Shown: positions 6,882 to 57,686 of the stretch, one piece after another
Layout of the letters: each line of letters opens with the position of its first letter
How positions within the stretch are numbered: the stretch's first letter is position 1
Virus record (IMG/VR): IMGVR_UViG_3300037245_000940
Location: 1-57,686 of that record
DNA from: a virus
Reading direction: 5' to 3' (one strand)
DNA: 57,686 nucleotides
The notes under the pieces: model-generated
What the model was told of the DNA's origin: nothing
Database searches by the model: none
Seen by the model: only the letters and a program-made list of their open reading frames with translations
Made by a program: the position numbers and the translations under genes

Positions 6882-9005
6882 ATGGGAACTCCTTATGATG
6901 AAGATGATGGAATACCTAATAACACTACAGAGTGGGCGTCTGATGGTTTGCATGTTTTAGAGCCTGCTGCTGGTAAAGAAGTTACAGGTTGGGTATTAAA
7001 CGATGTACCAGGATCTAATAATGAAAACTGGTTAAAGAGAAATATATACCGATGGGAAAAGTATTTCAAACGAGCACCACTTGATATCATTCAACATGGA
7101 GTTTGGGATCCTCCAAGCGTAAGCGTAGCGGGCGGTACAGGCGGTGTTGATCCAACATTCACCATTGGTTCCTTCGTTGTAGTTTCGCAAAGCGGTAAGC
7201 GTTTACCGTTCAGTGGTGGTGATTTTACACCGTCGCCATCGGCAGGGACTGTTGAACCATTGCGTGCCGATGGCGTGTTTTGGAAACTTGATGAAGTATC
7301 GAATGAATGGGAATGGGCTTATATAGAAGATGTATTTGGTGTAGGTTTTTCTTCTGTTACTTCTGAGCATCATCTTCTATTCACTGTATCAGTACAGGAA
7401 GATGCAGTAGACTACGAAATAGCAACCCCTACAGATCTTGCTATAAAGAACGCAAGAAAGTCTTCTATGGTTAAAAATCATCTTTACGTATCAGGTTCTT
7501 ACGACCCTACTAACGGTGAAGAATATGTTGGTATATTTGGCATTCAGCAAGCCATTGATAATCTTGCATCAAGGCAAGGCGGGATTGTAGAAGTCGAAGG
7601 ATCCTGGTTAGGCAAATGGGATTGGCAAGGAATAGATAAGATCAAGGTCAAATCAGGTGTCACTGTAAAAACTGAATCAGGCGCTTTGATTACTACACCT
7701 TCGACTACTTATTCTCAAGATCCTATCGACACAGTTTTTGAAATGGTAGGATACGAAGGAACGATCTATTTCAATTCTGCTACAGAGATTCAGGACGATG
7801 TAGACTTGAATCAAAACTTTGATGACTTCGGAAAACTTTCCATGGTTCAAATTTTATCAGGACCAAACGAAGGGTTTTATTTATTCCAAGATTTCTTAGT
7901 AGTCGGTGGCGATCCTTCAGATCAATTCCGAGGGGCAAAGATGACGACTCTTTATCGTGAACCTGTAGCGTTTACTGATTCTATTTCAGCGCCTTACATT
8001 GTTTGGATTATGAATTCAAATATTTTAGCAATCGGAATTGACGGATCGAAGATGCCGTTATCCGGTGGTGAATCTTTAATCAGGGCAGGATATACTTGGA
8101 ACTGTAAAATCAGAGAGAATAACTTAAGGGCTGAAAATGGTGGTGACATTGATTTTGGAATTGATCTTAGCTATGGCCCAAACCATGGACTAGGACTTGA
8201 CAATAACGAAATCATAGGAACGTTTTCACAGGGGGTAATAACAGATGAGCTACTTGAAAATGAAAGGTGTACGGTAACTGAAAACATTGTAGACCTTTCT
8301 GCATCTATAGGTATCTCCGATGGTATTACATTTAAATCAAGCGGAGCTGGAGATAACCTGATTCATGGGAATAATGTTGATGCTTCAGGTACTAAAGAGA
8401 GTTACGACTCTAGCGCAGGATGGAATGGCTACCCTGCCTTAATTGAGCATAATGAAAATGGTAGTCATAAAGCTAATATTATCGGAGTTGATGAAATTAA
8501 TGCATCGATTGCAGGTGCAGGGCTTATGGGGGGTTCTGGAAGTGCTTTGTCATTAGGCGATCAAGGCCTTTGGCTACTTGCTTCAATGTCAGTATTAGCA
8601 GATGCTTCTGGACCTCAAACAATCCCGCTTCCACCCATGCGAGAAATAGCAAAAGCAAAAGATGGTACGGACGAATCACCTGTTGCTGCTGGATACTTAG
8701 GCACAGGCGCATTTGACGTTTCCGATGGATCATACCCTTGGAATATTAGACTTGTTAGCGGCTCAGGTTCTTTCCAGATAAGGCCGCCATGTACTATGTT
8801 AGCAGGTGTTATTACTCCGAAATATGTCTCTGGAGATGTTGTTGTTAGTTGTGCTTTGATAAACAATTCGTTTATGGGGGTTTATACAATTGATTATGAT
8901 GTTACTGGTGTAGATGAAGAATATTGGCATATAACAACATTTGATATGGCAGGGGTTTCCGATCCAAAGCCATTCCAAATAACCTTCAACAAATCAACGG
9001 TGTAA
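6882..9005 (+). CDS. Tail fibre / receptor-binding protein
   Basis: A 707-residue protein, preceded by a good ribosome binding site (AAAGGGA). The N-terminus (DDGIPNNTTEWASDGLHVLEP and LKRNIYRWEKYFKRAP, residues ~8-70) looks like a baseplate-attachment region shared by fibres of this phage type. The middle (residues ~220-450) has repeated short strands like a beta-helix or pectin-lyase-type fold, and the C-terminus is Gly/Ser-rich. It is richer in GC than its neighbours, as is common for exchanged host-range genes. The sugar cassette follows soon after. Confidence 0.75.
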   Translation: MGTPYDEDDGIPNNTTEWASDGLHVLEPAAGKEVTGWVLNDVPGSNNENWLKRNIYRWEKYFKRAPLDIIQHGVWDPPSVSVAGGTGGVDPTFTIGSFVVVSQSGKRLPFSGGDFTPSPSAGTVEPLRADGVFWKLDEVSNEWEWAYIEDVFGVGFSSVTSEHHLLFTVSVQEDAVDYEIATPTDLAIKNARKSSMVKNHLYVSGSYDPTNGEEYVGIFGIQQAIDNLASRQGGIVEVEGSWLGKWDWQGIDKIKVKSGVTVKTESGALITTPSTTYSQDPIDTVFEMVGYEGTIYFNSATEIQDDVDLNQNFDDFGKLSMVQILSGPNEGFYLFQDFLVVGGDPSDQFRGAKMTTLYREPVAFTDSISAPYIVWIMNSNILAIGIDGSKMPLSGGESLIRAGYTWNCKIRENNLRAENGGDIDFGIDLSYGPNHGLGLDNNEIIGTFSQGVITDELLENERCTVTENIVDLSASIGISDGITFKSSGAGDNLIHGNNVDASGTKESYDSSAGWNGYPALIEHNENGSHKANIIGVDEINASIAGAGLMGGSGSALSLGDQGLWLLASMSVLADASGPQTIPLPPMREIAKAKDGTDESPVAAGYLGTGAFDVSDGSYPWNIRLVSGSGSFQIRPPCTMLAGVITPKYVSGDVVVSCALINNSFMGVYTIDYDVTGVDEEYWHITTFDMAGVSDPKPFQITFNKSTV

Positions 9006-9010
9006 TAACA

Positions 9011-9349
9011 ATGTCCGAACTACAAGCAGTAAAATTTATCTCTGAGTTATTATCTAAAGTTGATCCTGCTTTATCTTACACATTTATAACAGTTGTAGCA
9101 CTAATAGTATTATCATCTAGGTTTAAAAAGTGGCTAGACAAGAACCTAGAAACAAGAGTAGATAGCACTGTATATGAAGTGCTACGTGATAGATGCGCAG
9201 TTGACAGGGTTAATTGCGATGGTAGATTTAAGCTTATACACGATGAAATCAAACAGGTAAAAGATACTGTTATATATCATGCGCCAAATGGTGAACTACA
9301 AAAGATACTAGAAAAAGTTTCGAATATGGAGAAGGCGCTAACTAAATGA
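9011..9349 (+). CDS. Small one-helix membrane protein, possible holin
   Basis: A 112-residue protein with one membrane segment (about residues 21-36, LSYTFITVVALIVLSS), then a basic stretch and a charged helical C-terminus likely to form a coiled coil. Size, topology and place after the fibre fit a phage holin or lysis-related protein, but no specific family is recognised and no endolysin lies beside it. It overlaps the glycosyltransferase gene by 4 bases (ATGA). Confidence 0.5.
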   Translation: MSELQAVKFISELLSKVDPALSYTFITVVALIVLSSRFKKWLDKNLETRVDSTVYEVLRDRCAVDRVNCDGRFKLIHDEIKQVKDTVIYHAPNGELQKILEKVSNMEKALTK

Positions 9350-11778
9350 AAATACTTCACATATTCCCATGGAGTTTTAAAATAGGTGGTCCTCAAAGGT
9401 TTATCCATGATCTTTGTATTGACTCTTTGAAGTATGCTGATGTTTATTTAATGATACCTAAAAGCAAAGAAGGAAGTTTTTTTACTAGTATAAGTGGATT
9501 AAACATTATAGAAACAGAAAATAATTCAGACGCTAAAGCTAGTCTACTTGAAATCAATCCTGATATCATACATCATCATAATATATCAGGTAAATGGCTT
9601 TTGAAGTTTATAGAAAAGGAAATGCCTAATAGACTTATAGCAACACACCATATAAAAGAAAGAAACGTAAACTATAAGTCTAATAAAGACGTTTACTTTT
9701 TCTATGATAACGGCCTTAACTGTATAAAGCACGGTATAGATACTGAGCTTTTCAAGCCTGTAGAAAGAGAAACAAAAAGAAACGTAGTAGGAATAATCGG
9801 TAGACGAACAAAAACCAAAATACCAGATAGTTTCATAGATGAATTATTAACTAATAGTAGGTATCAAAGTTTCGACTTCAAGATAATAGGAAGTCCTATT
9901 AATAAAGAAGATGACGAAATAGAAGAGAAGTTAAGTAAACTTAAAAACGTAGATTTTATTCCAGACTATACACACGAATCAGCAGTAGACGCTTACAATT
10001 CAGTTGACATAGTATTAATACCTACTAAGTCAGATGCAGGGTATACTGCCCTTGAGGCATGCTCGTGTGGAAAACCTGTAATCTATAGAGACTCTCAAGG
10101 GTTAAGCGATGCTATAGGCAGTGTAGGATTTTCATTCAAAGAAGATAGCGATATAATAAACATACTTGATAATTTTAAATTAGACAAGTATGCTTATGAT
10201 ACAGCTTCTGAAGCTTCTAGAGATTTTGTAATTGATAATTATAGCTTGCAACAAATGGTAGATGATTATATAGATGTGTATTCGATGAAAGTTAGAAAAG
10301 ACATAAAGAGGATAAAGAAAATGACCAAGCTTGGTAAAAAAGTATACGTTTTTGTAACTGTTCACAATAGGGTTGAGTGTACTAGAGAATGTATTGAAGC
10401 ACTAAACAAAACAGAAGGCGAGAACATAAAAATATTCTTATTTGAAAATCATTCTGACGTTGATAGAGAAGAGTTATTTAAATTATATAACTATTTTATA
10501 TCAAACAAGATGGTATCTTCTATAATTGTTAATACAAAAGATTCTATATGCGATACTGTGTGGTCAAAGTCTCTTGCATTTAGACAAATGATGAGTTTAA
10601 TAGAAGTTGCTCCAGAAGATAACCCAGAATACATGCTTATGATAGATAATGATAAAGTTGTTTTAGATGGTTGGCTAGAGGCATGTATCAATGTAATCGA
10701 ATCTGATGAAGCTAAAGATGAAAATATAAATGTTGTTTCAGCATGGCATAATAACGCATTAGGATATAACGTAAGCGATAGTATAACTGTAAATGATATA
10801 AATGTAGAAATTCAAAATAGACTAGGCGGTGCATTTTGGTTTTCGCGTTTAAAGTATTGGGAAAAGTTAGGACTTCCTAAATTAGATTTTCATGATGATC
10901 AATTTTTTTGGGATAAGGTAAACGAGTTTAGCGATAAATTCGGAGTTATAAAACCTCTCTTAGTTCGTCACTCAATGAAAGAAACTTATTCTTCCAGGAT
11001 AAAGTTCCTCGGTCGTAATTATAATAAGGATGAATATTCAATGTATGCTAGAAGTATGGACTGTGTTGCTAGTAGGTTTGAATTTTTCCATGATATAGAA
11101 TCATCTATAATTAAAAACACAGAATTGTTAAGAGATGATTATGATTATTATGTAGATAATGTTTCTGAAGCAGGATGGGCAGTTTCAAGGAAAATAGCTT
11201 CGCTATTATACTCAGTATGTGAGTTTACATCTCCTATGAACATACTAGATTTAGGTTCTGGTTTTTCTACATTTGTGTTAGCTAAATATGCAAAAAGCTT
11301 GAGTCATAAAATTAACATTTATTCATACGATTGTGATGACGCATGGCTAAAGAAAACCAAATCATTTTTAAGTAAAAACGGATTATTGGGATTTGTATCA
11401 ATTAAAAATTATAAAAAATTCAAAGGCGGTGAATTCGATTTAATATTTGATGATATAGAATGGGCAAATGGTGTAAGGAAAAGGGATTTAGAGAGTATCG
11501 TTTCTACACTAAGCCAAACAGGCATATTGATATTAGATGATATACATTGGGAAGTATTAGAGAAAAAAGCTAAAGAATTAGATGCAAGTAATAAATGCTG
11601 TTTTTATGATCTTAAAAAATATACACTAGATGGAAATAAAGACAGAAAAGCAGGATTGATATGTGATCCAGACAGCAATAAGCTTACATCAAGATTTTTG
11701 TTTAGGAATACAATCGGTAAAAAGAGAAAGACATCAAGCGATATTAAAAAAATGAAACGCGCAGGTGTAAGATGGTAG
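9346..11778 (+). CDS. Three-domain protein: GT4-like and GT2-like glycosyltransferases plus methyltransferase
   Basis: An 810-residue protein with three enzymatic domains. Residues 1-315 are GT-B (GT4-like): KIGGPQRFIHDL near the N-terminus, IKHGIDTELFKP at 127-138, and GYTALEACSCGKPVIYRD at 231-248, the donor-binding E-x7-E-type region. Residues 332-545 look like GT2 (GT-A): VYVFVTVHNRVECTRECIEAL and an acidic IDND motif at 433-436 for metal and nucleotide sugar. Residues ~615-780 are a class I SAM-dependent methyltransferase: LDLGSGFSTFVLAKYA at 634-649, acidic residue after strand 2 in YSYDCDD, and FDLIFDD. The likely role is to build and methylate a glycan. The substrate is unknown. Overlaps both neighbours. 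Confidence 0.82.
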   Translation: MKILHIFPWSFKIGGPQRFIHDLCIDSLKYADVYLMIPKSKEGSFFTSISGLNIIETENNSDAKASLLEINPDIIHHHNISGKWLLKFIEKEMPNRLIATHHIKERNVNYKSNKDVYFFYDNGLNCIKHGIDTELFKPVERETKRNVVGIIGRRTKTKIPDSFIDELLTNSRYQSFDFKIIGSPINKEDDEIEEKLSKLKNVDFIPDYTHESAVDAYNSVDIVLIPTKSDAGYTALEACSCGKPVIYRDSQGLSDAIGSVGFSFKEDSDIINILDNFKLDKYAYDTASEASRDFVIDNYSLQQMVDDYIDVYSMKVRKDIKRIKKMTKLGKKVYVFVTVHNRVECTRECIEALNKTEGENIKIFLFENHSDVDREELFKLYNYFISNKMVSSIIVNTKDSICDTVWSKSLAFRQMMSLIEVAPEDNPEYMLMIDNDKVVLDGWLEACINVIESDEAKDENINVVSAWHNNALGYNVSDSITVNDINVEIQNRLGGAFWFSRLKYWEKLGLPKLDFHDDQFFWDKVNEFSDKFGVIKPLLVRHSMKETYSSRIKFLGRNYNKDEYSMYARSMDCVASRFEFFHDIESSIIKNTELLRDDYDYYVDNVSEAGWAVSRKIASLLYSVCEFTSPMNILDLGSGFSTFVLAKYAKSLSHKINIYSYDCDDAWLKKTKSFLSKNGLLGFVSIKNYKKFKGGEFDLIFDDIEWANGVRKRDLESIVSTLSQTGILILDDIHWEVLEKKAKELDASNKCCFYDLKKYTLDGNKDRKAGLICDPDSNKLTSRFLFRNTIGKKRKTSSDIKKMKRAGVRW

Positions 11779-12296
11779 GTCAATACTGCGTAATAGAAGA
11801 AAATGTTATAATAGGCAAAGATTGCAAAATAGGTGACTATGTAAAATTGTCAAGCGGTACAGTGATAGGTGATAACTGTATCATAGAAGACTATGTAAGA
11901 ACTACAGGATCATGTTACATAGGAAACAATGCAGTAATAAAAACAGGCTCAATAATATCAAGGGGCGTTGAAATTTGCAATGATGTTTTTATAGGTGCAG
12001 GTGTAGTTACAGGAAGTACTCAACTAATAAAAGGAAAACACAAATTAGTAGTAACTCATATAGGTAGTAACTGCAAGGTCTATTCATCTACTAACATTAT
12101 ACCAGGATCATTCATAGGTAATGATTGCATAATAGGTGCAAGTTCTAACGTATGGGGTAAATACGAACTAGGGTTCATGTATGCTGGAAACCCATGTGTA
12201 AAGAAAAAAAAGCTAGGAAGTTTTATAGATTTAATAGCTATTGATAATATAGGCCATTTATGGAAAAGTGAATCATTTAAAAGACTATGGGAGTAA
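11772..12296 (+). CDS. Hexapeptide-repeat acyltransferase (WbbJ/PglD-like)
   Basis: A 174-residue protein made almost entirely of left-handed beta-helix hexapeptides ([IV]-G-x-x-x, e.g. VIIGKDCKIGDYVKL, VIGDNCIIEDYV), ending MYAGNPCVKKKKLG, the family's typical G-x-P-A/C close. Such enzymes transfer acetyl groups from acetyl-CoA to sugars, often to amino-sugar nucleotides in O-antigen or capsule synthesis. It overlaps the upstream gene by 7 bases. The exact acceptor cannot be read from sequence. Confidence 0.85.
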   Translation: MVGQYCVIEENVIIGKDCKIGDYVKLSSGTVIGDNCIIEDYVRTTGSCYIGNNAVIKTGSIISRGVEICNDVFIGAGVVTGSTQLIKGKHKLVVTHIGSNCKVYSSTNIIPGSFIGNDCIIGASSNVWGKYELGFMYAGNPCVKKKKLGSFIDLIAIDNIGHLWKSESFKRLWE

Positions 12297-12316
12297 TAAG
12301 CAGTGATATACACTAA

Positions 12317-13141
12317 ATGAATACAGCCTATAGTATACAAAAATATCTAAAAGAATTAAAAGTTGAGTCTACAATAGTAGGCGATGGCAATAGCGAATTT
12401 TTAGATATATCTGACTTAGGAAGCTGTAAATTAAGTTCATTAATATTCGTACATAGTCTAGGTTCTAAGGAAAAAGAAAATGAACGATTGAACATTGTAA
12501 ATAAAAAGCAACCTTCGATTGTGATTACTACAAAAGAAATAAGAGAAAAATTATCGGGGTATGGATGTGTAATAGAGGTACACAATCCTAGGTTGGCTTT
12601 TTCATTAATAGCAAAGAAACTAAACAAAGGACTCGAAAACGAAGGTATAGATAGAAACTGCATAATATACGATGACTTTGTTACTATTGGTAAACTAGTT
12701 TCTATAGGTCCATTCTCTGTAATAGGAAATGTAGGGTTAAGCCCTAATAAAGTAGATAGAAACCTAGACAACACTGCACATTTAGGTAAAGTTGAAATAG
12801 GATTTAAGGTTTCTATCGGTTCAAACTGTCACATAGCAAGGGCAGTATTAGGCAAAACGATCATAGGCAATTCAAGTATCATAGCTAACAATGTAACAAT
12901 AGGCCATGGCACAAAGCTGGGTAAGCGTGTGAAGGTTGCCCCTGGTGTTGTCATCAGTGGTAGCTGCGATATAGGCAATGATACCTGGATAGGCCCGAAT
13001 GTATCGATCAAGGAAAATATAACTATCGGTGCTAATTGTTTCATCGGTATCGGCTCTGTAGTATTACAAGATGTACCTGATGATTCTATAGCCTATGGAA
13101 ACCCTGCTAAGGTTCGCAAAGATGCAAGGCAACCATGGTAA
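12317..13141 (+). CDS. LpxD-like N-acyltransferase
   Basis: A 274-residue protein with an LpxD-like plan. A ~100-residue N-terminal domain (ISDLGSCKLSSLIFVHS, HNPRLAFSLIAKKL) resembles the uridine-binding domain of LpxD. A long left-handed beta-helix follows, with IIANNVTIGHGTKLG near residues 190-205, whose His matches the catalytic His of LpxD (AHN/GH context). The C-terminus is YGNPAKVRKD. LpxD N-acylates an amino sugar with acyl-ACP, but this one may use acetyl-CoA or another sugar. The segment from about 12900 is richer in GC than the rest. The start has a weak ribosome binding site. Overlaps the PIG-L gene by 7 bases. Confidence 0.75.
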   Translation: MNTAYSIQKYLKELKVESTIVGDGNSEFLDISDLGSCKLSSLIFVHSLGSKEKENERLNIVNKKQPSIVITTKEIREKLSGYGCVIEVHNPRLAFSLIAKKLNKGLENEGIDRNCIIYDDFVTIGKLVSIGPFSVIGNVGLSPNKVDRNLDNTAHLGKVEIGFKVSIGSNCHIARAVLGKTIIGNSSIIANNVTIGHGTKLGKRVKVAPGVVISGSCDIGNDTWIGPNVSIKENITIGANCFIGIGSVVLQDVPDDSIAYGNPAKVRKDARQPW

Positions 13142-13755
13142 GTATCGACTATAAAAACGCCCGTGTGCTAGCTGTTGGCGCACACGCCGATGATATCGAG
13201 CTGGGCTGTGCAGGTTTCCTTTCAAGGTTCAAGTTCAAGCCGATCCTTGCTGTTGCGGCTTGTGGAAAAAACGATATCAGAAGCAGAGAATCAATGCTAT
13301 CTTGCAAAGTGTTAAAAGCAACCTTTAGACCTATGATGTTACAAGATAAGAACCTAGATATTGTTTTACTTATACAAAAAATAGAAACGTTAATTTCAGA
13401 TATTAAACCTACAATAATATTAACTCATTCAACGAATGATTCACACCAGGACCACAGGACAGTTAACAAGGCTGTTATTAGTGCAGTAAGAAATAAAAAC
13501 TGTACGGTATTATTTTTTAAATCACCTTCTACTTTAGATTTTAAACCGAACGTATTTGTAGAATTAAGTAAGCAAAATATCAATACTAAATTAAGGGCGT
13601 TAAAAGAACATTCCACACAAGCCCACCGTAGGTTTATTGAGCCTACGATAGTCAAATCAGTAGCACGGTATTGGGGAACCACTTATAGAAGTAATAACGA
13701 GTACTGCGAACCGTTTGAACTTTTCAGAATGGTAATTAATGATATACAAGAATAA
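13135..13755 (+). CDS. PIG-L family deacetylase
   Basis: A 206-residue metal-dependent N-deacetylase of the PIG-L/LmbE family. The N-terminal AHADDIELGCAG (residues 16-27) is the AHPDD zinc motif with Pro replaced by Ala. The second metal ligand lies in NDSHQDHRT (residues 101-109, His104/His107). Family members remove the N-acetyl group from GlcNAc-containing substrates, which would expose an amine for the acyltransferases or sulfotransferase next to it. The first ~130 bases are GC-rich, continuing the patch in the previous gene. Overlaps the next gene by 17 bases. Confidence 0.88.
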   Translation: MVSIDYKNARVLAVGAHADDIELGCAGFLSRFKFKPILAVAACGKNDIRSRESMLSCKVLKATFRPMMLQDKNLDIVLLIQKIETLISDIKPTIILTHSTNDSHQDHRTVNKAVISAVRNKNCTVLFFKSPSTLDFKPNVFVELSKQNINTKLRALKEHSTQAHRRFIEPTIVKSVARYWGTTYRSNNEYCEPFELFRMVINDIQE

Positions 13756-14344
13756 GAATCTACTAGTACATATACCGAAAACAGGTGTTACATCGTTCAG
13801 GCATTTGTTATTTTTGCATACAGGTGAAGTTAATAAGTATGATAATATACCGTATAAGCATTTCACTGTCAAGGAAGCACTGACACATGGAGTCGGTGAA
13901 GTAGATAATATTTATACTATATTTAGAAACCCACTAGATAGAATGTTATCGCTATATAGTTTTTATAAACAGATTTATTTCACTCAAGGACTTGAAAAGA
14001 ATCAGCCGGAAGTGTATAAGATCGTTAAACATTGCGGTTTTAATGAGTTTATAAAAGAACTGCAACACTTGCCCGTGCATTACCATTGGGTAGACTATGA
14101 TTACTTTGTTTGCATAGATGGCAAGGTACCGGAAAACTTAACATGGTTATGGTTTGAAGAGTTACAAGATAGCTTCGAATATTTGTTAGAAGTCTTCGGA
14201 GTTGATAGGAACGATGCAAGGAAAATAGAGTTACCGCACATTTTCAAGAGTAAGCACATTGACTATAAAAAAGCATACTCCGAACAGTCAATAGAGATTG
14301 TTCGGAGTATGTTCCCATTTGCTTTTGATGGGATGTATTGTTAG
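13739..14344 (+). CDS. Sulfotransferase, probably PAPS-dependent and carbohydrate-acting
   Basis: A 201-residue protein with both cofactor signatures of the sulfotransferase 2-like family: HIPKTGVTS at residues 11-19 (5'-phosphosulfate loop, usually HIPKTGGTS) and FRNPLDRMLSLY at 62-73 (3'-phosphate-binding Arg/Ser region). It would move sulfate from PAPS to a sugar hydroxyl or amine. It is the last gene of the cassette and meets the minus-strand gene 14341-14637 tail to tail, overlapping by 4 bases. Confidence 0.82.
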   Translation: MIYKNKNLLVHIPKTGVTSFRHLLFLHTGEVNKYDNIPYKHFTVKEALTHGVGEVDNIYTIFRNPLDRMLSLYSFYKQIYFTQGLEKNQPEVYKIVKHCGFNEFIKELQHLPVHYHWVDYDYFVCIDGKVPENLTWLWFEELQDSFEYLLEVFGVDRNDARKIELPHIFKSKHIDYKKAYSEQSIEIVRSMFPFAFDGMYC

Positions 14345-14637
14345 TTATTTACTGCATCAGAAAGAGCCTTGTGTGCAGACCCTTCACCATTATCTCTATC
14401 ATATCCCCATACCGAAATCTCCTTATCTTCAGTAAATCGTATTTTCATAACACGCCCCTCAAGGTAATCAAAATCAGAATGGTCTTTTAATAGTGATAAA
14501 GCTTCTGATTCAGTCATAACATGCGAAGGTACATAATGGAGTGCTCCCATCCCCTGTGTTTTTGCATTGTTAAAAAGAGATGCTAAGATTTTTTCAGGCG
14601 TCGATTCGATGGTTCCGATAAAGTACGTTGCTCTCAT
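14341..14637 (-). CDS. Hypothetical protein, 98 aa
   Basis: Starts with a clear ribosome binding site (GGAG, spacing about 6) before ATG at 14637. No family is recognised. The sequence is acidic and looks alpha/beta (TYFIGTIESTPEKILASLF; RVMKIRFTEDKEISVWGYD). It lies behind a 13-bp hairpin and the gene 14709-14930, and is probably transcribed from the minus-strand promoter at 14974-15002. Confidence 0.68.
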   Translation of the reverse strand: MRATYFIGTIESTPEKILASLFNNAKTQGMGALHYVPSHVMTESEALSLLKDHSDFDYLEGRVMKIRFTEDKEISVWGYDRDNGEGSAHKALSDAVNN

Positions 14638-27941: not shown

Positions 27942-28676
27942 ATGGGTTCAACAGGTTCCAACACAGGTTTTCACACAAGTATCGAAGTCAAAACGCTCGA
28001 TGAACTTCACTACGAAGTACTAAGAAGACTTTTAGCTAATCATAATCTTAATGACAAACGACGATTCCATGAATATAAAATACAAAAAGGTAGCTTCGAA
28101 GGAACTAATAGCAGGATAGAATTTAATTCTTTATCCTTGGTTGTCGAGTTTCCACAAGAGCGACCTCTAGCGCCTAGTATTAGTAATCCTAGTGTAACTC
28201 CCCCTGCTACCGATGAAATGATAGAGAAATACTTTCACGAGTATATACTTGGTACTGATGTCAGTAAAAATGAAACTTATACCTATGGGAGTTTTATTGG
28301 TCCTGAAGTCGATCGGATAGCTGCAATGATTAAGGTAAGACCTCATACTAATCATGCTTATATTGATATCGGTGGGTTAATTTGGACTTGGGTGGATAAC
28401 GGAACTAATACATTAGACGTTGACAAATCAGACCACCCGCCATGCCTACGCCACTTACAATGGCGCGTAATAGACAGCATTCAACACCTATTCTGTCACT
28501 TTAGATCATGGGATTTATGGGCTGGTATGCCTGTCAACCTTGGAGGTTTACAGCTTCTTAATGAATATGTAGCAGAGATGACAGGATATAAAACAGGTAA
28601 GTTAATTGCTTATTCTGAAGGTGCTCATATTTACGATTATCAACTTGAAATGGTGAAAGCGAGGTTAGGGAAATGA
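27942..28676 (+). CDS. Thymidylate synthase family protein, archaeal-type ThyA
   Basis: 244 residues. TYTYGSFIGPEVDRI (113-127) and PPCLRHLQWRV (166-176) contain the catalytic Cys168 of the ThyA family. FRSWDLWAGMPVNLGGLQLL (187-206) carries the R-S-x-D and P-x-N nucleotide-binding residues, and EGAHIYDY (226-233) the His/Tyr that binds the sugar. The RSWDLWxGxPxNLGGxQLL pattern is closer to archaeal ThyA than to E. coli ThyA. It could make dTMP from dUMP or, like some phage relatives, a hydroxymethylated pyrimidine nucleotide, and sequence alone does not settle this. Confidence 0.82.
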   Translation: MGSTGSNTGFHTSIEVKTLDELHYEVLRRLLANHNLNDKRRFHEYKIQKGSFEGTNSRIEFNSLSLVVEFPQERPLAPSISNPSVTPPATDEMIEKYFHEYILGTDVSKNETYTYGSFIGPEVDRIAAMIKVRPHTNHAYIDIGGLIWTWVDNGTNTLDVDKSDHPPCLRHLQWRVIDSIQHLFCHFRSWDLWAGMPVNLGGLQLLNEYVAEMTGYKTGKLIAYSEGAHIYDYQLEMVKARLGK

Positions 28677-33667: not shown

Positions 33668-33706
33668 GCCAACATATTTTTTAAAAAAAGTGTTGACAAA
33701 TGTTTT
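33668..33706 (+). repeat. 39-bp direct repeat spanning a promoter, copy 1
   Basis: Identical to 35379-35417. The repeat covers the AT-rich upstream element and -35 box of the promoters at 33693 and 35404, so the promoter itself has been duplicated. Confidence 0.9.
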
Positions 33707-37278: not shown

Positions 37279-37656
37279 ATGATTAACGGAAATTATGGAA
37301 AAGAATTAATACTAGACTTACATGATTGTGATATCACAAAATTTAATCGCAAAAGTCTTGATGAATATTTTAAAAAGATATGTAAAGAAATTAAGATGGT
37401 TCAGTGTGAAAGATATTTTTGGGATGATATAGGTGTACCAGTAGAAGAACAGCAAACATCAGCACATACGAAGGGCACATCTGCTGTTCAGTTTATATTA
37501 ACAAGCTCTATTGTAATACATACTCTTGAATTAATGAATGCTGCTTATATTAATATTTTTTCATGTAAAGACTTCGATGCTAAATTAGCAGAGAAATTAA
37601 CATGTAAATGGTTCAACTCTAGTAGTTGTAAATCAACTATAGTTGAAAGGGTTTAA
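37279..37656 (+). CDS. S-adenosylmethionine decarboxylase-like (SpeD family) protein
   Basis: 125 residues, the size of prokaryotic SpeD. KELILDLHDCD near the N-terminus is the first SpeD strand. GTSAVQFILTSSIVIHT (66-82) aligns with the SpeD self-cleavage and active-site region, placing Ser76 at the pyruvoyl-forming Ser, His81 at the proton donor and FSC (Cys96) at the catalytic Cys. The Glu normally before the Ser is Thr75 and the His after it is Ser77, so substrate may differ; SpeD relatives acting on ornithine or arginine are known. It is followed directly by the DUF3326 gene. Confidence 0.72.
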   Translation: MINGNYGKELILDLHDCDITKFNRKSLDEYFKKICKEIKMVQCERYFWDDIGVPVEEQQTSAHTKGTSAVQFILTSSIVIHTLELMNAAYINIFSCKDFDAKLAEKLTCKWFNSSSCKSTIVERV

Positions 37657-38646
37657 ATGTTAGGAATCTTTATTATACCAACTGGTATAGGTTCTGAAAT
37701 AGGTGGACATGCAGGAGATGCTAGCCCTTCTGCGAAACTTATATCATCTGCATGTTCTAAGCTAATAGTAAACCCTAACGTTGTCAATGCTTCGGATATC
37801 AACGAAATGGCAGATAACATGCTATATGTTGAGGGATCTATGATAGATAGATTCTTAAAGCTAGAAATCAATCTAAAAGAATCATATCAAAATAAAATAT
37901 TAGTAGTAGCAAATGGTCCGTTGACAAGTGATACTGTCAATGCTGTCAATGCTGCACGTTCAACAATAGGAATTGAGGTTTCTGTATTAGAACTTAAAAC
38001 ACCCTTAGTAATGAATGCTAATATAGAAAACATAGCTACAGGTAATGTTAGTGGTGTAGATTCATTAATTGAACAAGTTAATAAATATGAATTCGATGCA
38101 CTTGCTATTCATACTCCAATAACTGTTGATAGAAATGTAGCTCTAAATTATTTCAGAAACGGAGGTATCAACCCATGGGGAGGTATAGAAGCAATTGTAT
38201 CTAAAATGATTACAAGCAGACTAGATAAGCCAGTAGCACATGCGCCTATTGAAAGTATTAATATTGATGACAAAGAGTTATACTTTTTTAATGATACAGT
38301 AGATCCTAGAATAGCTCCTGAAGCGATATCTAATTGTTTTTTACATTGTGTTCTAAAAGGGCTTCACAAGGCACCTAAAATTGGTGGCATAATGTGCGCA
38401 CATGATGTAAAGTTCTTAATATCACCATATGGTTGTTTCGGTGAACCCCATAGAGCATGCGGAAGATTAGGAATACCTATAATAATGGTTAAGGAAAATA
38501 AAACAGTGTTAAATGACACTATGCCAAAAGATGGAATAATTTTTGTTGAAAATTACCATGAAGCTGCTGGTATTGTTCTTTCATTTAAATCTGGTATTAG
38601 TATTGAATCAGTAAGGCGTCCTATTAAGCAATTAGATGTTTTATAA
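37657..38646 (+). CDS. DUF3326 family protein
   Basis: 329 residues. The start IPTGIGSEIGGHAGDASPSAKLI, then NPNVVNASDINEMADNMLYVEG, NAVNAARSTIGIEV, INPWGGIEAI and VLKGLHKAPKIG match the full-length pattern of DUF3326, a family of unknown function known mainly from cyanobacteria and other cellular organisms. The conserved G-x-G and NPWGG stretches suggest ligand binding. The ATG directly follows the SpeD-like stop, so the two are co-translated. I know of no established role in phages. Confidence 0.78.
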   Translation: MLGIFIIPTGIGSEIGGHAGDASPSAKLISSACSKLIVNPNVVNASDINEMADNMLYVEGSMIDRFLKLEINLKESYQNKILVVANGPLTSDTVNAVNAARSTIGIEVSVLELKTPLVMNANIENIATGNVSGVDSLIEQVNKYEFDALAIHTPITVDRNVALNYFRNGGINPWGGIEAIVSKMITSRLDKPVAHAPIESINIDDKELYFFNDTVDPRIAPEAISNCFLHCVLKGLHKAPKIGGIMCAHDVKFLISPYGCFGEPHRACGRLGIPIIMVKENKTVLNDTMPKDGIIFVENYHEAAGIVLSFKSGISIESVRRPIKQLDVL

Positions 38647-42624: not shown

Positions 42625-42747
42625 TAAGAGGTTTTTTTCAAAAAACTTTTTAACTTCCATTTTTCAACTTACAACCTTACAACCTACAAAAACCTAGTAT
42701 ATAAGCAGGGTTAGAATGTAGGGAGCAAGGTCAAGTGTGGGCTTACA
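42625..42747 (+). repeat. Dispersed non-coding repeat, copy B
   Basis: Shares ordered blocks with 23311-23434: the poly-T/poly-A palindrome, CAACTTACAACCTTACAAC, AGTATATA and AATGTAGGGAGCAAGGTCAA. Its last 33 bases (42715-42747) form an inverted repeat with 42946-42978 with one mismatch. Confidence 0.85.
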
Positions 42748-42945
42748 AGTCTTATCTGGACTGCATAAAATATTAAGTTGGAGGTATCTTCGAGTAACCA
42801 CCTGTTGTTGCTCTGCTCTCTTGTGGAAATTATGCACCAAAGTATCTCAAAATAACTTAAAAATCGTCATAAGTACTTGATATAGTTGAAGATTTTTTTC
42901 GGCTCGTTTTGACCAACATAAAAATAAAAAAATATATGTAGGAAA

Positions 42946-42978
42946 TGTAAGCCCACACTCGACCTTGCTCCCTACATT
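42946..42978 (-). repeat. Inverted copy C of the 33-bp repeat core
   Basis: Reverse complement of 42715-42747 with one mismatch. The two copies face each other across about 200 bases. Confidence 0.9.
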
Positions 42979-56807: not shown

Positions 56808-57686
56808 AGAGTTAATAACAAAATGGGGATTCCAGGTTGAAACGAATAAAGTAAAAACGTTTCATAAAGCTATAACATCTGCAAAGAAAAGTGTAAAAGA
56901 AATCGGTAGAAACTTAGGTCCGATGGTTGCTGATATTAAAAAGTTCGGACTAGCATTAGCTGGTTTTGCTACTGCATTTTCTGCTGCTGTTATCTTACCA
57001 GGATTAAAATTAGAAGATTCGATCAAAGAAACCTTGACATTAGTAAACGTTTCAGGTAAAGAGTTTTTAGAATTAGAAGAGAAAATGATAAAGAAGGCTG
57101 TAGAGCTTTCTAACGCTACGGGTGTACAGGCTACAGAGATTAACAAAGGTTTCTATCAAGTCCTTTCAGCAGGCGCAGAAGCACTATCAGAAGACTTTAA
57201 TAAACTATCCGAAGTATCTATTAAACTAGCCAAAACGGTTGGATTACCAATCAACGATGCTATCGAGAAATTAGCAGATACAATAGGTGCATTTGGACTT
57301 GAATTAAAAGATGCTGAAATGGTTGCTGATAGGTTCTTTAGAATTTCACAATTAGCACAAACCTCTGTACCTCAAATAGCGCAGGCAATGAGAGAAGCAG
57401 CTGTAGTAGCTAACGATATGAATATATCGTTAGAAGATACATTATCTATATTAGCAGAGTTTGCAAAGGCTGGTGTTAAAGGTTCACAAGCTGGTACTGC
57501 ATTTAGACAAGTATTTGTTAAGCTGGGCAAACCTACCGATGAAGCACAAAAGTCATTAGATAAATATGGTATCAAACTGTTTGATGCTAATGGTGAAATG
57601 AAAAATGCAATAGATATTATTGATATATTAAGAAATAAAACTAAACAGTTGACCAATGAACAGAAAATCAGTTTCTCTAAAGTATT
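56794..57686 (+). CDS. Tail tape measure protein, N-terminal part (partial at window end)
   Basis: ATG at 56794 gives 297 complete codons plus two bases. LGPMVADIKKFGLALAGFATAFSAAVILPG (residues ~45-75) and ELSNATGVQATEINKGFYQVLSAGAEAL are TP901-type tape-measure features. The remainder of the gene lies at the window start (2-1714), joined in frame. The part from 57288 is homologous to the beginning of the window. Confidence 0.85.
   Translation, partial: MPIVRELITKWGFQVETNKVKTFHKAITSAKKSVKEIGRNLGPMVADIKKFGLALAGFATAFSAAVILPGLKLEDSIKETLTLVNVSGKEFLELEEKMIKKAVELSNATGVQATEINKGFYQVLSAGAEALSEDFNKLSEVSIKLAKTVGLPINDAIEKLADTIGAFGLELKDAEMVADRFFRISQLAQTSVPQIAQAMREAAVVANDMNISLEDTLSILAEFAKAGVKGSQAGTAFRQVFVKLGKPTDEAQKSLDKYGIKLFDANGEMKNAIDIIDILRNKTKQLTNEQKISFSKV
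57288..57399. repeat. Direct repeat, copy 1 (identical to 1-112)
   Basis: Exact match to bases 1-112 in the same frame. From 57288 to the window end is 399 bases, i.e. exactly 133 codons, so going around the join gives a 399-bp repeat unit in frame. Confidence 0.9.

Follow-up and report, generated by a model that had tools for sequence, protein, structure and literature searches.

What does a tailed phage modify with a set of sugar-building and sugar-tailoring enzymes encoded immediately behind its tail fibre? The question is raised by a cassette of five intact genes at positions 9346-14344 of IMGVR_UViG_3300037245_000940, an uncultivated tailed phage whose whole IMG/VR virus record of 57,686 bases is referred to here as the window. 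The genes encode glycosyltransferases (GT) of families GT4 and GT2, a methyltransferase, two acyltransferases, a PIG-L-type N-deacetylase and a sulfotransferase, and close a continuous virion operon at its 3' end, directly behind the tail fibre region. With confidence that falls just short of even, we propose that these are late-expressed, soluble cytosolic enzymes that build and tailor a short glycan, most likely one attached covalently to a virion protein, either the tail fibre or another tail or baseplate protein.

The evidence that ties part of the cassette to the virion operon comes from a distant relative, IMGVR_UViG_3300041809_000248 (G002/L018, hereafter L018). This 29.9-kb contig has a GC content of 61%, against about 35% for the window, and is collinear with it from terminase to tail fibre at about 21-45% protein identity (all larger window proteins compared; TerL 32%, portal 32%, MuF 45%, major capsid protein 37%, baseplate J 33%, fibre about 21-23%). 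In L018 the baseplate J, DUF2612-like and fibre genes are followed, 5 nucleotides (nt) behind the fibre stop codon, by a GT4 gene and then by overlapping LpxD-like and PIG-L genes. The GT4 part of the window protein matches L018:4135-5217 at 27-30% identity (E 3e-18), the LpxD-like protein matches L018:5204-6007 at 31-32%, and the PIG-L protein matches L018:6001-6603 at 32%; in a tree of PIG-L proteins, those of the window and L018 pair at 94/97. Because the cassette proteins have diverged to about the same degree as the baseplate proteins encoded beside them, this GT4/LpxD-like/PIG-L core appears from the sequences to have been inherited with the tail module of the virion operon, and not recently captured. 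Of the five-gene order, which an earlier sequence-only reading of this DNA had proposed to look for in other phages, the core was recovered in L018; the full set was seen elsewhere only in a sister contig that is identical to the window over the cassette.

The cassette and its immediate surroundings are organized as follows.

6882..9005, + strand: tail fibre, after the baseplate J and DUF2612-like genes; both ends homologous to the L018 tail fibre; candidate glycan acceptor
9011..9349, + strand: small protein, holin/spanin-like by position; a single membrane segment is predicted (hydropathy maximum of 1.80, at residue 17)
9346..11778, + strand: GT4 (about residues 1-313), GT2 (about 330-560) and class I methyltransferase (about 630-735) in one protein (Pfam, NCBIfam)
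11772..12296, + strand: left-handed beta-helix (LbH, hexapeptide) acyl/acetyltransferase (Hexapep 2.3e-26)
12317..13141, + strand: LpxD-like acyltransferase with an LpxD-type N-terminal domain (Hexapep 1.5e-20); core gene
13135..13755, + strand: PIG-L/LmbE-type N-deacetylase (PIG-L 6.6e-15); core gene
13739..14344, + strand: sulfotransferase of the 3'-phosphoadenosine-5'-phosphosulfate (PAPS) type (Sulfotransfer_2 2.3e-8)
14341..14637, - strand: convergent gene that overlaps the cassette end by 4 nt and forms its boundary

The sequence-only reading had taken these five genes as one cassette for building and decorating sugars in the virion operon after the tail fibre, a reading that the analysis supports. 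Their open reading frames (ORFs), content and order are as it described, and matches in Pfam, NCBIfam and PHROGs agree with its naming, with the GT2 and methyltransferase domains barely reaching their cut-offs. The motifs that it quoted (AHADD, HIPKTGVTS, FRNP, IDND and LDLGSG) are all present. It had also called all five genes overlapping, which holds for three of the four junctions; the fourth (12296/12317) is a 20-nt gap. Co-transcription with the tail genes is read from gene spacing and overlap only, because a scan of the cassette region for sigma-70-like promoters found no more promoter-like sites than in shuffled sequence. Codon usage is least phage-like in the sulfotransferase and PIG-L genes. 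The small protein ahead of the cassette had no convincing match in the family profile searches (Pfam, PHROGs).

Within the first protein, the GT4 part scores above cut-off (Glycos_transf_1 4.7e-11 over residues 134-259; 43 and 39.9 bits for PF00534 and PF13692), and the GT2 part, which carries DND and HDDQFF motifs and hence a DXD, reaches the Pfam cut-off exactly (PF00535, 6.7e-5, 23.3 bits); its structure prediction, at a predicted local distance difference test (pLDDT) score of 41, is too poor for use. The methyltransferase part holds the LDLGSG motif and scores 26.9 bits against a cut-off of 26.3 (Methyltransf_24, 9.7e-6). The nearest PDB sequences to the first LbH protein (11772..12296) are LpxA-like and sugar N-acetyltransferases. 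The second combines a hexapeptide helix with an LpxD-type N-terminal domain, in which residues 15-137 align to residues 16-130 of LpxD 4e75; it falls below the curated LpxD scores of NCBIfam (103.5 bits against a cut-off of 242.5, and 115.8 against 207). A search of bacterial genomes for the LpxD-like pair found 54 loci, and at none of them was there a nearby PIG-L match that could mark a bacterial source cluster; at the two of the 54 that were inspected, a second LbH gene adjoins the LpxD-type gene. The PIG-L protein scores above its cut-off (PF02585, 56.2 bits against 28.2) and has intact AHADD and HQDH motifs, with H17, D19, D20, H104, D106 and H107 invariant among phage relatives (alignments A1 and A7). 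The sulfotransferase has both PAPS motifs, PKTGVTS and FRNP, scores 34.9 bits against a cut-off of 22 (PF03567) and matches phrog_3347 (1.5e-7); its single-sequence structure model (pLDDT 33.5) is unusable. Record MT837438, the best tblastn match to the PIG-L protein, was rejected as a phage relative as it looks like bacterial DNA.

How widespread is this gene set? The sequence-only reading knew of no described phage cassette with the same composition, and we likewise found no matching set within the sensitivity of our search of 50,697 annotated phage records, and no publication describing one in a literature search. In those records neither the tri-domain protein nor the sulfotransferase was matched, and PIG-L and LpxD-like searches had no record in common among the matches listed (40 of the 69 LpxD-like records); no isolated phage with the GT4, PIG-L and LpxD-like core was seen in the collection searched. 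The tri-domain protein matched only the sister contig across viral contigs and bacterial genomes, as did the sulfotransferase among viral contigs. About 100 further loci found through the baseplate J or DUF2612-like protein yielded no other complete cassette; one of them, L079, has an LbH gene. In that phage-like contig with tail genes (L079:7915-10513), the LbH acyltransferase is followed by a methylmalonyl-CoA mutase-like gene (PF01642, 7.9e-164) and then by a small ORF resembling a B12-binding protein.

An IMG/VR scan based on aligned PIG-L proteins found 37 loci, L018 among them; the IMG/VR searches rely on short conserved patterns, so that distant relatives are missed, and several comparison contigs are fragments. 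Phage PIG-L genes fall into three settings: DNA glycosylation, polysaccharide-type clusters and virion operons. In the first, they accompany TET-associated glycosyltransferases (TAGT) and weak TET/JBP matches, as in Acadian-type mycobacteriophages (gp3 is a TAGT, 6.5e-38) and, weakly, in Arthrobacter phage Klevey, where the PIG-L partner matches TAGT weakly; a TAGT match was found in 10 of the 25 other PIG-L contigs. In the second, with names read from the sequences, PIG-L genes lie with WbqC-like, GT and sugar-synthesis genes (L022, L026 and L031) or adjoin epimerase-like genes (L020). The third comprises the window, L018, L019, L037 and L040, and, counting sets with either a PIG-L or an LpxD-like gene, four phage contigs beyond the window and L018 carry sugar genes inside head or tail operons. 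Specifically, TerL, portal and MuF genes are followed in L019 by PIG-L, LbH, methyltransferase, a GT-like ORF and GT4; the major head protein gene is followed in L037 by GT, PIG-L, LpxD-like and a further GT-like ORF before the tail genes; a Mu-type portal precedes PIG-L and GT in L040; and L056, which lacks PIG-L, has portal and major capsid protein genes and then LpxD-like, dehydrogenase and GT-like ORFs. Some of these contigs have further unusual genes: the MuF-like head gene of L019 (4609-5973) has a long insertion resembling an intein with a nested reverse ORF, a ParB-like N-terminal part is joined to a methyltransferase inside the PIG-L cassette of the same contig (7445-8554), and the Mu-type portal of L040 (1332-3830) seems to be joined in one protein to a topoisomerase IB-like catalytic core.

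No membrane segment was predicted in any of the five cassette proteins. Since the enzymes are all soluble, and since the set is tied to the tail module in L018 and to head modules elsewhere, a virion protein assembled in the cytosol would be the likeliest acceptor. A plausible order of steps can be drawn from the families. The GT4 domain would add an N-acetylated amino sugar, PIG-L would strip the N-acetyl group from it, and the LpxD-like enzyme would re-acylate the exposed amine with another group. Among the further enzymes of this phage, the GT2 domain may then attach a further sugar, the other LbH enzyme (11772..12296) may O- or N-acetylate the glycan, the methyltransferase may cap it, and the sulfotransferase may transfer sulfate from host PAPS. 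Sulfation, methylation and the second GT, all part of the sequence-only reading, lie outside the conserved core. We regard as possible, and on balance doubtful, the more specific claim that the tail-operon cassette of this phage supplies the virion with a sulfated, N-acylated amino-sugar glycan, the GT4, PIG-L and LpxD-type core being a recurring, inherited virion-decorating system.

Several observations weigh against decoration of the virion. The acceptor is not named by any sequence evidence, and late phage genes can also act on the host envelope. L018 ends 34 nt past its PIG-L gene, which limits the comparison to the core; only this phage was seen to have the extras (GT2, methyltransferase, the first LbH protein and the sulfotransferase), and, given that the sulfotransferase and PIG-L genes are the least phage-like in codon usage, the extras may be recent and have another role. 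L066, a relative by its baseplate genes, has no cassette, so that the cassette is dispensable in the wider group. Finally, the first glutamate of the GT4 EX7E motif is absent in the window (DX6E) and the motif is intact in L018; it is variable within GT4, however, and the GT4 fold assignment of the window protein stands.

The main rival to virion decoration, which we consider unlikely though a serious contender, is that the lipopolysaccharide, the capsule or another envelope glycan of the host is changed at a late stage of infection, which would keep progeny or competing phages from sticking to host cells and debris. The enzyme classes are the same as those of bacterial polysaccharide loci, the PIG-L genes of L020, L022, L026 and L031 sit in sugar-gene clusters, and a jumbo phage contig with PIG-L (G018) pairs a sulfotransferase with genes resembling sugar nucleotidyltransferases, kinases and phosphatases. 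Similar clusters in cyanophages were interpreted as modifying outer polysaccharide (PMC7824862). However, the block contains no membrane enzyme, flippase, polymerase, lipid-linked sugar step or nucleotide-sugar synthesis gene, and its core appears to have been inherited with a tail fibre, not in a sugar-synthesis cluster. As for a Gtr seroconversion cassette, no GtrA, GtrB or Gtr match was found in Pfam, and the five proteins are without membrane segments. The sequence cannot settle the choice between virion and host surface as the target.

We judge it improbable that the cassette serves DNA hypermodification, in which the GT4 and GT2 domains would glycosylate a hydroxymethylated base and PIG-L, the acyltransferases and the sulfotransferase would tailor the DNA-linked sugar against restriction. 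Phage PIG-L genes do often travel with TAGT, an isolated Acinetobacter phage, vB_AbaM_3098, carries PIG-L and a pair of GT4 genes near its gyrase genes, and the window has a thymidylate-synthase-like gene at 27942. Yet no TAGT or TET/JBP match was found in the window or in L018, L019, L037 and L056 (all but the window partial contigs), and the tail-operon position of the block is distant from the thymidylate-synthase-like and replication genes. The window PIG-L protein groups with that of L018, outside a supported clade of TAGT-linked PIG-L proteins, which includes those of mycobacteriophages and Klevey, in a tree whose deep branches are weak.

That the cassette is accidental or decaying host cargo without function is very improbable. 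Extras found only in this phage and the codon usage of the sulfotransferase gene would fit such an origin; the frames and key motifs are nonetheless intact, the sister contig is identical over the cassette, and the core is about 30% identical in a distant phage. For the same reasons (intact genes, a second contig, and the core behind a homologous fibre in L018) we rejected a degraded host fragment confined to one contig, one of the outcomes that would have refuted the sequence-only reading. Least credible of all is a small-molecule route, in which GT4 and PIG-L, the shared core of the mycothiol and bacillithiol pathways, would make a free amino-sugar conjugate that is then acylated and sulfated: the best weak NCBIfam matches are indeed MshA (31.8 bits against 462.5) and BshB1 (46.8 against 182.5), with BshA at 21 against 273.7, but all scores are far under the equivalog cut-offs, no cysteine ligase or thiol step was seen, and the genes lie behind a tail fibre.

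Returning to virion decoration, parts of the proposed chemistry have known counterparts. A GT4 enzyme and a PIG-L-family deacetylase start the synthesis of glycosylphosphatidylinositol (GPI; PIG-A/PIG-L), mycothiol (MshA/MshB) and bacillithiol (BshA/BshB), where GT4 adds N-acetylglucosamine and the deacetylase removes the acetyl group; sequence matches to these are weak, and the next steps differ. Lipid A synthesis runs through deacetylation and then LpxD-type acylation, glucosamine being N-deacetylated by LpxC and N-acylated by LpxD. The helix and N-terminal domain here are LpxD-like, whereas the deacetylase is PIG-L instead of LpxC and the LpxD-like score is under the family cut-off. The sequence-only reading had drawn a parallel with rhizobial Nod factor synthesis, which concerns only the set of chemistries (chain building, deacetylation, acylation, methylation and sulfation): the NodA, NodB (CE4 deacetylase), NodC and NodH families had no match in Pfam or NCBIfam, and PIG-L, Sulfotransfer_2 and the LpxD-like protein are not Nod enzymes. 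In kind, the GT4 and PIG-L pair stands nearer to mycothiol, bacillithiol and GPI synthesis than to Nod synthesis.

Among phage systems, the TET/TAGT clusters of Acadian-type phages and Klevey likewise place a GT beside PIG-L; there it is a TAGT with a TET/JBP-like partner, and here a GT4 with an acyltransferase in a tail operon. Phage GTs are known to make glycans that virions carry covalently (Freeman et al. 2023, as cited in PMC11256854 and PMC12619734), as in mycobacteriophages Che8 and Rita, where structural proteins are decorated; the set of N-deacetylase, LpxD-like protein and sulfotransferase is not described for them in those citing accounts, and the target here is putative. Polysaccharide-modification clusters of cyanophages and jumbo phages also combine GTs with sugar-tailoring enzymes (PMC7824862), but include nucleotide-sugar synthesis genes, of which this block has none, and occupy another genome position. 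Few cases of glycosylated phage virions are known. If our proposal is true, a transferable deacetylate-and-replace core would let phages remodel, and not merely add, the sugars on their virions, with possible effects on adsorption, stability or recognition. The analysis also separates the three settings of phage PIG-L genes.

The window genes are those of a contractile-tail phage (TerL, MuF, portal, protease, major head protein, sheath, tape measure, baseplate hub, baseplate J, DUF2612-like protein and tail fibre), and the only DNA-level match to public phage records within its first 25 kb is of 42 bases (a tRNA). The sister contig (IMGVR_UViG_3300043172_000236, 26-kb) is 99.99% identical to the window over 17.7 kb and spans the junction between both window ends. 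Because it reads across the joined ends, the genome is circular, at about 57.3 kb, and the cassette is therefore the 3' end of a gene run that continues from the far end of the window, where the sheath and tape-measure genes lie; the intact tape-measure gene encodes 735 amino acids. Positions 1-394 and 57288-57682 are 84.5% identical (60 substitutions, one gap), though the sister contig reads through, and the last approximately 400 bases seem to derive from a divergent strain.

Elsewhere in the window, the thymidylate-synthase-like protein (27942-28676) matches only the C-terminal part of its family, and from its sequence could be a thymidylate synthase or a hydroxymethylase. Directly upstream of TerL (37279-38646) lie an S-adenosylmethionine decarboxylase-like gene (PF02675, 1.1e-12) and, next, a DUF3326 gene (PF11805, 4.2e-67), an unusual cargo for a phage. 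The motif AAGTGTTGACAAATGTTT is repeated at 33688, 35399, 42163 (- strand), 43052 and 47649 (5 observed, 0.7 expected); the copies, one immediately before the prohead protease gene, are probable phage promoters. A gene-poor stretch at 42715-42978 contains a 40-nt inverted repeat with arms that are 90% complementary and 184 nt apart.

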